Below are positions 2,548 to 7,631 of a DNA stretch of 64,000 bases, piece after piece; position 1 is the stretch's first letter, and each line of letters opens with the position of its first letter. A program made the position numbers and the translations under genes. The notes under the pieces are model-generated. The model worked only from the letters and a program-made list of their open reading frames with translations, had not been told where the DNA came from and did no database searches. The stretch lies in assembly GCF_024714495.1 (NCBI RefSeq), contig NZ_JAMZMJ010000001.1, forward strand, positions 806,001 through 870,000, in the 5' to 3' direction. This DNA is from Marinoscillum pacificum. Lineage in GTDB: Bacteria; Bacteroidota; Bacteroidia; Cytophagales; Cyclobacteriaceae.

Positions 2548-4539
2548 ATGAAAAATATAATGTTGCTCGCATTTTCAATTATTACCTTCTTATCAACTGC
2601 ACAAACCCCATGTGTAGACGGATATGCAGGAATATATCCATGTAACCAAGTGACTCTTTTGGCTCATATGACGCCTGATGAGATTGAGGCGGTTGAGCAT
2701 AACACTTTTTGGTTAAATGACATTTGGGGGTGGACAGACCCAGCAACCAACAAGGAGTATGCACTAGTAGGCTTGAAAGATGGAGTAGCATTTGTTGATG
2801 TGACCACTCCCACTGCTCCAGTATTTTTAGGAAAACTATCAGAACCAAAAACTGCAAATAACCGAAACTCCAGAGAAGACGAAGTACAACACGGAAAATC
2901 TACCTGGAGAGATATAAAAACGTATAACAACTATGCTTTAATAGTTAGTGACCTCAACTCAGCTCATGGAATGCAGGTTTTTGATCTTACGAAATTGAGA
3001 GGACTTGATGGTCAGAATCCTCAGGAGTTTGATCATGACTATCACTATGAGGAATTCGGCTCAGCACATAATATAGTGATCAATGAATCAACAGGTTATG
3101 CTTTCGCGGTGGGAATATCCTCCGGAGGAACAGGTTGCTCTGGAGGCTTACATATCATAGACATCAAAAACCCTTTAGCACCAACATTCGTCGGCTGTTT
3201 TGATGAGGATGGTTATACACACGACGCACAATGTGTTACTTATCAGGGTTTAGACGAGGATTATATTAATAAGCCAATCTGTTTCAACTCCAATGAAGAC
3301 ACTTTTACCATAGTGAACCTGGAGGATCCGAACAATCCAGTAATGATCAGTAGAAATGGATATGAAAATGCCGTGTACTCGCATCAAGGATGGCTCACTC
3401 CAGATCACAAATTCTTTTTAATGAATGATGAATTGGATGAGAACGCATTTGGTCACAACGCCAAAACCTTAATCTGGGACATAGAAGATCTAGACAATCC
3501 TAAACTAATAGGTTCGTATGTCAATAATATTTCATCGATAGATCATAACCTCTACACCAACGATACGCTGGTTTTTGAATCCAACTATTGGAGTGGACTG
3601 AGAGTATTGTCATCCGACAGTATTGGTTCTGGAGAGTTGGTAGAAATTGCTTCTTTTGACACCTATCCTCAAGGAGATGGCATTCACTTCGGGGGAACAT
3701 GGAGTAATTACCCTTATTTCAAAAGTGGAATTATTGTAGTTTCTGACATGAACAATGGCTTGTTCATACTAAAATTAAGTCCTGAAGTAAATCCAATTAC
3801 TCAAATGCCTACATCACAAACTACCTGCTCAGGATCAGGTTATGAGTTTTCAGTAGAAACTACCGGAGATGTGAACTTTCAATGGCAATCATTTGATGGA
3901 TTTACCTATCAAGAGATTAACGACAATGACTTCTACACAGGATCGAATGCAAATTCGCTTGTAGTTTCTCCAAATGAAACACTTGACGACTTACAATACC
4001 GATGTGTAGTCACAGACGAGGTTGGTAATACCTATTACACTTACCTGGTTCATTACGAGGGAGAAACATATCCGCCAATTGCGGAATTTGAGGTCTCCGT
4101 AGATGAATCTGGAGTTGCGACTTTTACGAATAAATCAAGCGATGCTACTTCCTATCTTTGGGAGTTTGGTGATGGAACCACTTCTACAGACACCAATCCT
4201 GAGCATCTATTTGAATATGGAGTATTTGATGTTACACTTACTGCATACAATGACTGTGGCTATAACATTATCACACAGAAAACACACATAGTAACAGGTG
4301 TAGATGAAGAATCCCGAGACCTCAGATTATATCCGAATCCCGCAGATGATTATGTAAATATTTACTCCAAGGAAGCCGGTAAACTATCAGTATACACTTT
4401 AGCCGGAGAATTGATTGAATCGTTTGACAAAACTTCTGGAATTGACTATTTCTCAATCAATCATTTAGCTGCCGGATCTTATATAATAAAAATCTCTACT
4501 TCATCAGGAACTGTAAGTAAGATCCTAATGAAGCAGTAG
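2548..4539 (+). CDS. Choice-of-anchor B (LVIVD repeat) protein with PKD domain and T9SS type A signal
   Basis: About 663 residues from the ATG at 2548, chosen because MKNIMLLAFSIITFLSTAQ is a clean signal peptide; an in-frame ATG at 2518 overlaps the rhodanese stop and would add 10 residues. The N-terminal two thirds has LVIVD-type propeller repeats (GVAFVDVTTPTAPVFLG, GLHIIDIKNPLAPTFVG, FTIVNLEDPNNPVMIS) as in the choice-of-anchor B family. An Ig/PKD-like stretch follows, with a PKD core (SYLWEFGDGTTSTDTNPEH), then a type A sorting domain (LRLYPNPADDYVNIYS...GSYIIKIST). It is predicted to be a T9SS cargo on the cell surface. Its stop is 2 bp from the stop of the convergent M50 protease gene. 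Confidence 0.88.
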   Translation: MKNIMLLAFSIITFLSTAQTPCVDGYAGIYPCNQVTLLAHMTPDEIEAVEHNTFWLNDIWGWTDPATNKEYALVGLKDGVAFVDVTTPTAPVFLGKLSEPKTANNRNSREDEVQHGKSTWRDIKTYNNYALIVSDLNSAHGMQVFDLTKLRGLDGQNPQEFDHDYHYEEFGSAHNIVINESTGYAFAVGISSGGTGCSGGLHIIDIKNPLAPTFVGCFDEDGYTHDAQCVTYQGLDEDYINKPICFNSNEDTFTIVNLEDPNNPVMISRNGYENAVYSHQGWLTPDHKFFLMNDELDENAFGHNAKTLIWDIEDLDNPKLIGSYVNNISSIDHNLYTNDTLVFESNYWSGLRVLSSDSIGSGELVEIASFDTYPQGDGIHFGGTWSNYPYFKSGIIVVSDMNNGLFILKLSPEVNPITQMPTSQTTCSGSGYEFSVETTGDVNFQWQSFDGFTYQEINDNDFYTGSNANSLVVSPNETLDDLQYRCVVTDEVGNTYYTYLVHYEGETYPPIAEFEVSVDESGVATFTNKSSDATSYLWEFGDGTTSTDTNPEHLFEYGVFDVTLTAYNDCGYNIITQKTHIVTGVDEESRDLRLYPNPADDYVNIYSKEAGKLSVYTLAGELIESFDKTSGIDYFSINHLAAGSYIIKISTSSGTVSKILMKQ

Positions 4540-4541
4540 AC

Positions 4542-5825
4542 TTAAGGCAATATGGTTTCTATCACCAATGGTTCAGGACTAAAACATAGTATGAACACAA
4601 TGATAGCAAACCAGCCAAGCACCTTACGAGGCGTATTAAGGGGTCTATGATCCAATACTGGCGGATGATCTAGGCCAAGCACCCTCCCAAGCAATAAAGC
4701 AAACAGAAGCCATCCTGAGTATCCTTCTATGCTTAAGAATGAGCTAAGTAAGAACTGCAACGTAAATATCACCGTGGCAAAAAGCCATCTATTACGCTTC
4801 TCCGAGAACATTGAACGTGTACTCACAAATAAGAAATACACATAGGCTAATATGATGACAATAAACTCCAACGAGCTTTCAAGTCCCACATCAGCCAAAT
4901 CATTGATGGTAATCAACCCTAAACCGGCATAAAAAATAAATGCGGTGAATAGCACCCTGGAAATAACTCGATGATTCTTAGCTCCAAACAAGCCAAATGT
5001 AATGTGTCCTCCATCCAATTGACCAATTGGTAATAAGTTCAATGCCGTAAAGAACATGGCCAGTAATCCTGCCAGCAAGAATGGATTATGCATGATCTCT
5101 TCCTTTCGGGGAACGTTTGCACCTTCAGGCATGAGGTATTTTTCAATCAATCGATAAAGCAAAGGTTTGCCAAAATACATGTTGGTATAACTCGGCTGAG
5201 GTTTGAAGTCTCGATAGTACCAATCTCCTTTTCTATTTTCATCAATATGAGCAACAGAATCTGCAGCACGCATTCGCGAATAGGCCAATGAATCCATATG
5301 TTTAGAAAATTCATATGTGTACACATGCTCTGGATAATCAAGACCATATTGTTCATACTCCGGATGTATTTCAAAGATCTGTTCTGGAGCGGGTAGAGTC
5401 GAATAGCCATATCCTATCACTCCGAGTGCAATCACGAATCCTGCCAAAGGTCCACTGATTCCTACATCAAAGTAATGCTTAAGTGAATAGATCTGATCTT
5501 TGATCTTGATAAATGCGCCCATTGTACCAAATGAAGGAGCAAGTATGAAACCTAGCCACATTGGTATGTAATAAGGCAAAGTAACATTGATCTTATGATA
5601 GCGTGCTGTAAAATAGTGACCGAACTCGTGGCATGTAAGTATCAGCAGAAATGGAATTGAAAACTGAAAACCAGAAAGAAAATCATCCCAGGTCATCAAT
5701 AAGCTCTCTGGAACCCAAAGAACAAACTTAGAGTAGATCCACTCGGCTCCTGCTATAGTAGTCGTTACAATCGTTACAAGAAACAATCCAATTTGAATGA
5801 GGAGTTGCTTTTGTTTATCAGTCAT
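4542..5825 (-). CDS. Site-2 protease family (M50) membrane zinc metalloprotease
   Basis: 427 residues with several transmembrane helices. The zinc motif HEFGH is at residues 66-70 and the third-ligand motif NLLPIGQLDGGH lies in the C-terminal half, as in M50 peptidases of the bacterial and plant EGY type. Between them is a roughly 110-residue soluble insert rich in Tyr and charged residues (EIHPEYEQYGLDYPEHVY region), larger than in minimal S2P cores. These enzymes cut transmembrane substrates within the bilayer; the substrate here is unknown. The start overlaps the end of the HAD phosphatase gene by 8 bp, so the two are a transcription unit. The 3' end almost touches the convergent LVIVD gene. 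Confidence 0.88.
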   Translation of the reverse strand: MTDKQKQLLIQIGLFLVTIVTTTIAGAEWIYSKFVLWVPESLLMTWDDFLSGFQFSIPFLLILTCHEFGHYFTARYHKINVTLPYYIPMWLGFILAPSFGTMGAFIKIKDQIYSLKHYFDVGISGPLAGFVIALGVIGYGYSTLPAPEQIFEIHPEYEQYGLDYPEHVYTYEFSKHMDSLAYSRMRAADSVAHIDENRKGDWYYRDFKPQPSYTNMYFGKPLLYRLIEKYLMPEGANVPRKEEIMHNPFLLAGLLAMFFTALNLLPIGQLDGGHITFGLFGAKNHRVISRVLFTAFIFYAGLGLITINDLADVGLESSLEFIVIILAYVYFLFVSTRSMFSEKRNRWLFATVIFTLQFLLSSFLSIEGYSGWLLFALLLGRVLGLDHPPVLDHRPLNTPRKVLGWFAIIVFILCFSPEPLVIETILP

Positions 5826-6731: not shown

Positions 6732-6805
6732 GGGCCTATAGCTCAGCTGGTTAGAGCACTTGACTCATAATCAAGGGGTCCCTGGTTCGAGCCCAGGTGG
6801 GCCCA
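6732..6805 (+). tRNA. tRNA with CAT anticodon (elongator Met or Ile2)
   Basis: A full 74-nt cloverleaf can be drawn: acceptor GGGCCTA with TGGGCCC plus discriminator A, D-arm GCTC...GAGC, anticodon arm CTTGA-CTCATAA-TCAAG, variable loop GGGTC and T-arm CCTGG-TTCGAGC-CCAGG. CCA is not encoded (ACCCC follows). The anticodon CAT means Met (elongator) or Ile with lysidine at position 34. The A73 discriminator and body fit either, and I do not decide between them. The initiator is unlikely because the acceptor has a normal first base pair. The gene is followed at once by its terminator and the GIY-YIG array. Confidence 0.9.
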
Positions 6806-6823
6806 CCCCTTAAAGTCTGATAA

Positions 6824-6856
6824 AGCCGATTGTTGAGAAACGATCGGCTTTTTTCG
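6824..6856 (+). terminator. Intrinsic terminator of the tRNA (copy 1)
   Basis: The stem GCCGATTGTT pairs with AACGATCGGC (one T-G pair) around a GAGA loop and is followed by a run of six T. It lies 19 nt after the tRNA, so it should end the tRNA transcript. The same hairpin occurs twice more downstream as part of the tandem array. Confidence 0.85.
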
Positions 6857-6858
6857 TC

Positions 6859-7150
6859 ATGGCACACATCGTCTACATACTACATAGCAGCAAACTGAAT
6901 AGGTTTTACAGGATCATCAGAACTAGAAGCTGCTGAAAGACTAGAATTACATCTCAACAAGTATTACGGCAACAACAAATTCAGTGCTAAAGCGGATGAC
7001 TGGAAACTATTTCTGGCAATAGACTGCTCGAATAAATCCCAGGCTCTAGCAATTGAAAAACATATCAAGAAGATGAAAAGCTCGAAGTACATCAATAACC
7101 TTAAGCAATACCCCGAAATGATCGATAAGCTTTTAGAAAAATACAAATAG
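6859..7150 (+). pseudogene. GIY-YIG nuclease, frameshifted copy
   Basis: This is the first of two tandem copies. Alignment by eye to the intact copy at 7235 shows the same length except for a 2-bp loss near 6909: TTTTACAGG here against TTTTACACAGG there, a loss of one CA in a short CA run. The loss comes just after the VYILHSSKLNRFY strand and causes an early stop (GSSELEAAERL is out of frame). If the two bases are restored, the frame stays open to the TAG at 7148-7150 and differs from the other copy at about 10 of 97 residues, with many more silent differences. It is therefore a recently broken gene. Confidence 0.88.
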
Positions 7151-7182
7151 CGAGCCCAGGTCCCCGATAGCTATCGGGGCAC
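7151..7182. repeat. tRNA 3' fragment with 18-bp palindrome (copy A)
   Basis: CGAGCCCAGGT (7151-7161) repeats the T-arm of the upstream tRNA. The next bases in the tRNA, GGGCC, are replaced here by the perfect palindrome CCCCGATAGCTATCGGGG (7162-7179), after which homology to the tRNA 3' flank resumes with CACCCCTTAAAG. In the tRNA the same place is itself a palindrome (GTGGGCCCAC), so a short palindrome has been exchanged for a longer one. Confidence 0.85.
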
Positions 7183-7200
7183 CCCTTAAAGTCTGATAAA

Positions 7201-7230
7201 GCCGATTGTTGAGAAACGATCGGCTTTTTT
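7201..7230 (+). terminator. Intrinsic terminator, copy 2 of the array
   Basis: Same sequence as the tRNA terminator: GCCGATTGTT-GAGA-AACGATCGGC followed by TTTTTT. It sits 4 bp before the ATG of the intact GIY-YIG gene, so read-through from the tRNA would be stopped just before that gene. Confidence 0.8.
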
Positions 7231-7234
7231 CGTT

Positions 7235-7528
7235 ATGACATACATCGTCTACATATTACACAGCAGCAAACTGAATAAGTTTTACACAGGATCATCAGAA
7301 TTAGCAGCCTCTGAGAGACTAGAACTTCATCTCAACAAGTATTACAGCAACAACAAATTCAGTGCTAAAGCCGATGACTGGAAACTTTTTCTGGCAATAG
7401 ACTGCTCCAATAAATCCCAGGCTCTAGCAATTGAAAAACATATCAAGAAAATGAAAAGCTCGAAATACATCACTAACCTAAAGCAATACCCCGAAATGAT
7501 CGCCAAGCTTTTAGATACATACAAATAA
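7235..7528 (+). CDS. GIY-YIG nuclease family protein (intact copy)
   Basis: 97 residues, a single GIY-YIG domain. The two signature strands are IVYILHSS and FYTGSS (the YTG form of YIG). A conserved Arg/Glu stretch (ERLELHLN) and the C-terminal AIEKHIKKMKSSKY and YPEMIAKLL segments are as in the small UPF0213-like GIY-YIG proteins common in Bacteroidota. These are predicted endonucleases, but the target is unknown. The ATG lies 4 bp after a terminator hairpin and no ribosome-binding site is obvious, so expression must use a promoter inside the unit or read-through. The protein has no partner domain for DNA recognition. Its setting inside a tRNA-derived tandem repeat suggests a small mobile or selfish element; that is inference. 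Confidence 0.9.
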   Translation: MTYIVYILHSSKLNKFYTGSSELAASERLELHLNKYYSNNKFSAKADDWKLFLAIDCSNKSQALAIEKHIKKMKSSKYITNLKQYPEMIAKLLDTYK

Positions 7529-7560
7529 CGAGCCCAGGTCCCCGATAGCTATCGGGGCAC
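7529..7560. repeat. tRNA 3' fragment with 18-bp palindrome (copy B)
   Basis: Second copy of the T-arm fragment CGAGCCCAGGT (7529-7539) followed by the same palindrome CCCCGATAGCTATCGGGG (7540-7557), identical to copy A and exactly 378 bp away from it. Confidence 0.85.
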
Positions 7561-7578
7561 CCCTTAAAGTCTGATAAA

Positions 7579-7610
7579 GCCGATTGTTGAGAAACGATCG
7601 GCTTTTTTCG
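7579..7610 (+). terminator. Intrinsic terminator, copy 3 (end of the array)
   Basis: Third identical copy of GCCGATTGTT-GAGA-AACGATCGGC-TTTTTT. No GIY-YIG ORF follows. Similarity to the other units fades after TTTCGTTA at about 7612, so this marks the distal edge of the array. Confidence 0.85.
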
Positions 7611-7631
7611 TTACTAACATCTACAAAAAAG

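Follow-up and report, generated by a model that had tools for sequence, protein, structure and literature searches.

An intact tRNA-Met (CAT) was found by ARAGORN and Rfam (RF00005, 69.9 bits) on the plus strand at 6732-6807 of the window, by which we mean the whole 64,000-nucleotide stretch of Marinoscillum pacificum DNA that was analysed. This tRNA is the anchor and presumed target of the repeats behind it. Tandem Repeats Finder places a single array at 6804-7613, with a period of 378 and 93% matches. In a repeat search, the array copies start at 6804, 7180, and 7558 (spacings of 376 and 378), and a direct repeat of 300 nt at 6908 and 7286 shows 93% identity. Both results agree with the initial annotation, which had described a terminator, a GIY-YIG ORF, an 11-nt T-arm copy, and a palindrome repeating with a period of 376/378 bp behind the CAT tRNA.

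The array consists of two ~377-bp units that are 93% identical, with all directional features on the plus strand. The first copy of the tRNA 3' flank and intrinsic terminator spans 6808-6858 (hairpin at 6822-6851 plus a T run, inverted repeat I15). The GIY-YIG ORF of unit 1 (6859-7150) is a pseudogene, frameshifted near its start, with 89% identity to unit 2 over residues 16-97. Comparison with the tRNA identified the tail that follows at 7151-7161 as an exact 11-nt copy of tRNA positions 57-67 (CGAGCCCAGGT). After it comes an 18-nt palindrome, CCCCGATAGCTATCGGGG, at 7162-7179 (inverted repeat I6), in place of the GGGCC of the tRNA. The tRNA 3' flank and terminator are then repeated at 7180-7234 (hairpin at 7198-7227; direct repeat D2, 94%). 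The ORF of unit 2 (7235-7528) is intact and encodes 97 aa. Its tail at 7529-7539 is the same exact copy of tRNA positions 57-67 and is followed by the second palindrome at 7540-7557. A third copy of the flank and terminator at 7558-7613 (hairpin at 7576-7605), located by the repeat search and Tandem Repeats Finder, ends the array. Each unit had been thought to rebuild the tRNA tail and the terminator. Both are indeed copied, but the copied tails are not functional tRNA ends, since the palindrome replaces part of the tRNA.

The exact 18-mer palindrome occurs at only four sites in the 6.4-Mb genome, and 4/4 lie within tRNA-flanking copies. Because of this and of its recurrence across the phylum, the arrangement is not due to chance. 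When up to two mismatches are allowed, 12 of the 16 sites in this genome are in tRNA-flanking copies; the array of the window accounts for 2 of these, and the other 10 lie no more than ~95 bp from a tRNA.

The unit-2 protein belongs to the GIY-YIG superfamily (Pfam PF01541, E 3.5e-10). Unit ORFs are ~80-100 aa in size. Across 39 aligned proteins, Y6, S10, Y17, G19, R28, H32, W49, E67, and K71 are invariant, and the active-site residues Y6, Y17, G19, R28, and E67 are thus unchanged in 39/39. The AlphaFold model of the 97-aa protein is confident (pLDDT 94.0, pTM 0.84). By sequence profile and fold, the nearest solved relatives are UPF0213 proteins (1zg2, 1ywl) and SLX1; no match of the modelled protein reached E 0.001 in Foldseek. 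For pairs from different genomes whose dS was unsaturated, the dN/dS ratio was 0.07-0.25; with within-array pairs included, 58 pairs gave a median of 0.24. A few within-array pairs gave a ratio above 1, which rests on very few changes. The GIY-YIG protein is maintained for its function.

The association with tRNA genes was examined in 107 loci picked by protein similarity alone. A same-strand tRNA lies at most 150 bp upstream in 90 of them, 4 have one within 1700 bp, 3 have one downstream only, and 10 have none. Among these 10, three (L004, L006, and L028) begin with a tRNA 3' part that lacks its 5' counterpart, and three others (L005, L027, and L029) have tRNA-like tails at their ends. In a set of 80 loci from named genomes, which overlaps partly with the 107, the upstream tRNA is within 150 bp in 46 and at 150-1500 bp in 10, while 6 are cut by a contig edge. 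The remaining 18 have no upstream tRNA, and 8 of these have a tRNA within 200 bp downstream. The best 30 phylum-wide loci, 5 of which are common to the 107-locus set, have a same-strand tRNA within 200 bp upstream in 27/30. By a rough reckoning from 36 tRNAs in 6.4 Mb, the chance expectation of such adjacency is well under 0.1%. The tRNA types seen are Met, Asn, Thr, Val, Leu, Pro, Ala, Asp, Phe, His, and Gly, with Arg in a mirror form described below. A search for GIY-YIG ORFs beside tRNA or rRNA 3' ends had been proposed; tRNA linkage was found, and the full Rfam library at gathering threshold gave tRNA matches only, and no other structural RNA, in 30 loci. Attachment to structural RNAs other than tRNA was rejected on this result. 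A group I intron-encoded endonuclease was rejected on the same 30 loci and because the ORF lies outside the intact tRNA.

The nuclease clade also follows the tRNA type. On a tree of 105 nuclease domains (95 columns, with 43 of 100 inner branches open), the tRNA label changes 27 times compared to a shuffled mean of 68.7, and 0 of 200 shuffles were as low. "No tRNA" was counted as a label here; with those rows removed, the number of changes is 14. Val is used by two distant nuclease clades and Asn by several groups. The place of the palindrome within the tRNA copy tracks the nuclease clade, not the tRNA: it is mostly at ~31-43, with or without 59-65, in Val clade A and at ~55-63 in Val clade B, and the Asn groups have it at 33-43, at 44-51, or at 57-62 (L024). 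The ORF and tail are possibly co-inherited, so the fit between clade and isotype is stronger as support for a joint unit than as proof of a cut site, and part of it may be vertical co-inheritance. As expected of homing genes, the nuclease gene lies near the putative target, the tRNA, and its clade follows that target.

The tails were compared with the tRNAs next. A tRNA copy of at least 10 nt follows the ORF in 114 of 139 units and is absent in 25. Scanning the ORF as a control gave such a copy in 13/139, and shuffled tails gave 0/139. At least one internal replacement of 12-35 nt is present in 89 of the 139 units. A perfect stem of at least 6 was found in 101/120 replacements vs 2.8% of shuffled inserts, which kept the same flanking context; tails were scored against tRNAs without preselection by their own. 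The best match of the tail is a tRNA of its own genome strictly in 68 cases and with ties in 24, and only 1 of the 93 scored was worse. The origin or homogenisation of the tails is therefore local. In all, 57 distinct palindromes were counted, in which the outer CCCG/CGGG-type pairing is mostly kept and the centre changes on both sides. The outer motif TCCCGA...TCGGGA recurs across classes of the phylum.

The palindromes are not confined to tRNA copies. Hand counts of sites within 500 bp of a tRNA gave 9 of the 20 listed sites in genome G085 (11/20 not), 2 of 13 in G066, and 4 of 11 in G040, where 2 more lie farther along a unit array. One palindrome, CCCGATAGCTATCGGG, is at a helix tip of the bacterial RNase P RNA gene (L368, G085:C1:3828950-3829800, position 424). 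A tRNA-only feature was ruled out by these sites. Palindromes off tRNAs that sit in longer inverted repeats, with at least 6 of 8 flanking pairs, number 4/22 vs 2.1% expected, which is modest support for a hairpin-tip placement of the dispersed palindromes. By eye, the palindrome is inside apparent dispersed repeats off tRNAs at L360, L361, L363, and L367 (G085) and at L370-L372 and L375 (G066). At L379 (G040:C39), there are two ~180-bp repeats with tRNA-like ends and palindromes and no tRNA called nearby.

Occupied and unoccupied sites can be compared directly. The tRNA-Asn next to hsp20 was followed through ten species of one genus. Six are without a same-strand unit over ~600 bp, two of which (G116, G055) have opposite-strand GIY-YIG ORFs or fragments in the same stretch. 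One nuclease type occupies three others (with three units, at least two units, and one decayed unit), and the tenth species has a unit of an unrelated nuclease clade. For the tRNA-Met beside the HAD gene of the window, 90 loci were examined and 48 have that tRNA in place, 2 with a unit and 46 without; 2 of the 46 are too short to judge and known-occupied sites were left out, so these numbers do not give a frequency. By coordinates, units lie beside this HAD gene in nine more genomes (G193, G172, G121, G066, G185, G262, G273, G127, and G092). Thus, at both the tRNA-Asn and the tRNA-Met sites, the gene is present or absent at an orthologous position, as for homing genes. A single fixed unit everywhere, or a lack of copied tails beside other copies, had been named in the initial annotation as pointing to a local duplication; instead, the units are present or absent at orthologous sites and the tails recur across loci. 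A one-off duplication was also rejected because relatives are present in many genomes and tRNA adjacency is recurrent.

The boundaries of one insertion can be read in genus g64. In the empty genome G064, the tRNA is followed by a terminator, AAAAAGCCACTC..., and then its flank. In G193, which is occupied, another terminator comes after the tRNA, then the ORF and a palindromised tail, and only then the G064-type terminator and flank. G172 and G121 have a G193-like terminator pattern with more divergent copies, and G151 has a unit-type terminator without an ORF, which we read as a footprint. The order of the terminators in genus g64 indicates that the unit entered inside the tRNA and replaced its 3' end, so that the tRNA would have been rebuilt with the unit's own terminator and the native tail displaced downstream; this is claimed for that genus only. 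When the first and last terminators of 85 arrays were compared, 34 were alike, 21 different, 4 intermediate, and 26 unscored.

Relatives of the window protein were found in 172 of 295 family genomes (E<=1e-3), and a 39-row profile matched in 215 of 395 phylum genomes (E<=1e-10). Scanning named genomes yielded 265 relatives, and the best 80 were retained. By title, nearly all of these 80 are Bacteroidota (Flavobacterium, Algoriphagus, Roseivirga, Psychroflexus, Pedobacter, and others), the exceptions being one Chlorobiota MAG and one MAG titled Rickettsiales. A tblastn search of 50,697 phage records at E 1e-5 detected no relative of the window protein, plasmid records had no match to it, and 0 relatives were found among 47 pattern-matched stretches when viral contigs were scanned with the A2 alignment. 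Phage or plasmid cargo was ruled out by these results. PHROGs has no family for the 6 unit proteins tested.

The common 3' form begins with the tRNA and a terminator, continues with the ORF, and closes with a partial copy of the tRNA 3' end and a further terminator. The mirror form starts at the promoter region, after which a partial 5' copy, the ORF, and finally the tRNA follow. The mirror units at L252 and L269 (Altibacter, Muricauda) run from a promoter region through tRNA positions 1-13, a palindrome, tRNA positions 18-27, and the ORF to the full tRNA, and in the genome of the window the L003 ORF sits upstream of a tRNA-Arg. Either way, the ORF is flanked by a functional tRNA on one side and, on the other, by a redundant and incomplete copy of a tRNA from the same genome. 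Palindromised tRNA copies without an ORF flank many tRNAs. When a tRNA has copies on both sides, their palindromes occupy the same tRNA position in 15/27 cases and different ones in 12/27, a count in which several tRNAs appear twice due to overlapping loci. Downstream of tRNA-Met at L019 and L242, tandem ~165-bp units without an ORF (terminator, spacer, and palindromised tail) stand ahead of an ORF-bearing unit. At L039, three 94-bp ORF-less copies of tRNA-Asn precede the real tRNA-Asn, and more near-identical unit copies lie 2-11.5 kb off, which suggests that units can be carried off from their tRNA. ARAGORN calls the palindromised tRNA-Asn copies at L041 and L053 tRNA-Gly(CCC), likely an annotation artefact. 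The replacement of tRNA pieces by palindromes, the 5'-side mirror form, the ORF-less copies, and the phylum-wide spread all go beyond the initial annotation.

Units are often near-identical within an array, and array copies decay. Successive ORFs in the arrays examined are ~315-500 bp apart, and each unit has one small ORF and no integrase. Genes with a phage-integrase domain were seen at the same tRNA tails at L043 (G180, downstream of tRNA-Met) and L186 (G210, 3286-4600). At both loci, the integrase gene has separated the GIY-YIG unit or array from its tRNA, and the tRNA tail therefore serves both kinds of element.

Several known systems resemble the units in part. Tyrosine-recombinase integrative elements enter tRNA genes and make the tRNA whole again with a 3' end that they carry themselves. 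The units share this insertion and restoration, as well as tails with phage-integrase-type genes at L043 and L186, but the integrative elements carry a recombinase and the units have one small nuclease ORF only. UPF0213/YhbQ-type single-domain GIY-YIG proteins and SLX1 are the best profile and fold matches of the unit protein, but they are known as single chromosomal genes rather than as repeating tRNA-linked units. Yeast GC clusters and the sponge RHE are mitochondrial mobile hairpin elements. Like the units, they place short GC-rich hairpins within or beside genes for structural RNAs, but they are organellar. In fungal mitochondria, GIY-YIG elements replace the 3' end of a gene; there too, an endonuclease ORF rebuilds a gene end, but again in an organelle. 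We know of no mitochondrial element with a systematic pairing of a tRNA copy, a palindrome, and a nuclease.

The closest parallel is found in phage. Free-standing GIY-YIG homing endonucleases of T-even phages, including SegB, have, like the units, a nuclease gene beside tRNA genes, according to the available portions of the reports (PMC13096335, PMC2988022). SegB is reported there to cleave tRNA genes, where cleavage peaks, with a RAWTSGAAC motif that we read as a T-arm complement, and a tRNA plus segB is also reported to be amplified in tandem (PMC13096335). By its description, SegB is phage-borne, whereas the units are chromosomal, ~80-100 aa in ORF size, and phylum-wide. The available portions of the SegB accounts mention neither a rebuilt tRNA end nor palindromised tRNA copies, unlike the units.

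With moderate confidence, we take the units to be minimal homing-type elements of tRNA genes, SegB-like but chromosomal. Cleavage is putative, and nuclease cutting is proposed from the GIY-YIG family and the parallel with phage SegB. The nuclease would cut the tRNA gene of an unoccupied allele in the arm typical of its clade. Double-strand-break repair would then copy the unit in, with the two tRNA parts as homology arms, similar to the intronless homing of SegB. Tandem arrays may arise by self-cutting or by unequal exchange at the remaining tRNA parts. The palindromes that replace pieces of the redundant copy would remove the cut site, and perhaps tRNA function, so that the unit is not re-excised. 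The units are provisionally filed with free-standing homing endonucleases. A small element tied to a tRNA 3' end had been proposed in the initial annotation, and copied tails, tandem amplification, presence and absence, and isotype-following clades all favor such an element, with the cutting activity kept as putative. Against homing, the intact tRNA should retain any internal site, so self-cutting must be weak or context-dependent. The 12/27 two-sided cases with palindromes at different positions, the 25/139 units that lack a tRNA copy behind the ORF, and the 34/85 arrays with like terminators also speak against it. The palindrome is the weak point: the shared TCCCGA/TCGGGA motif and its sites elsewhere mean that simple site destruction does not explain it.

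A more far-reaching reading, which we put forward tentatively and with considerable doubt, gives the palindrome a role. Here the units would be a phylum-wide mobile element with an isotype-specific mini-nuclease at tRNA genes, the TCCCGA...TCGGGA hairpin at defined arms of the redundant copy would be a recognition or immunity signal, and the ORF-less marked copies would be non-autonomous offspring. To our knowledge, no homing or transposition system with such tRNA-specific marking of self and non-self has been described. The portions of the open-licence PMC literature covered hold no account of chromosomal tRNA-linked GIY-YIG arrays or of this palindrome.

It is unlikely that the units move by a hairpin-guided, transposition-like process, in which a structure-selective GIY-YIG enzyme of the UPF0213/Slx1 type would recognise the palindromic arm and move units, with or without the ORF, into hairpin-capable tRNA arms. 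The relationship to UPF0213 and the structure-selective nuclease SLX1 fits this idea, as do the pairing kept while the centres of the 57 palindromes vary, the same kind of palindrome in ORF-less copies, and the palindrome at the RNase P RNA helix tip. Nearly all units read adjoin tRNA genes, however, the off-tRNA palindromes are only modestly enriched in longer inverted repeats, and an unsystematic look at the loci read revealed no pattern of terminal recognition or target-site duplication.

Quite unlikely is an account in which the palindromes would be an independent short repeat, mobile or tied to repair and comparable to Rickettsia palindromic elements or mitochondrial hairpin elements. Such a repeat would land in redundant tRNA copies that are free of constraint, and the GIY-YIG unit would only supply the copies. 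The same 16-mer is dispersed off tRNAs in some genomes and is present in the RNase P RNA gene, as this account would have it. Yet in the genome of the window most sites are tRNA-flanking copies (the 12/16 given above). Different genomes also share the tRNA positions of their replacements, a recurrence that random landing would not produce.

We give very little weight to a device at the RNA level, where the palindromised copy would be a tRNA mimic (a decoy, antitoxin, or regulator) and the GIY-YIG protein a nuclease acting on tRNA. Some copies (L041, L026) do extend over almost an entire tRNA in which just the anticodon or D arm differs, but many tails are a T-arm fragment only, such as the 11 nt in the window, far too short to mimic a tRNA, and GIY-YIG domains are known as DNA nucleases. 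A further account, already disfavoured and barely credible, is that a tRNA tail was simply duplicated in tandem, locally, next to a domesticated host nuclease gene. The near-identity and decay of array copies, which it would account for, are set against a dozen tRNA amino-acid types phylum-wide, unit-free orthologous sites, a site occupied by two clades, and the displacement of a native terminator.

About half of the sampled phylum genomes carry a relative of the nuclease. The homing reading explains ORFs and pseudo-tRNAs that are open to misannotation, such as the L041 tails that ARAGORN takes for tRNA-Gly(CCC). If it is true, the tRNA genes of a whole phylum would be the hunting ground of a ~380-bp selfish element with one ORF. 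The dozen tRNA types and the nuclease clades would then raise the question of how a ~90-residue enzyme follows one tRNA gene. It would also raise the questions of how hosts survive under a nuclease aimed at an essential gene and why hairpins mark the tRNA copies.
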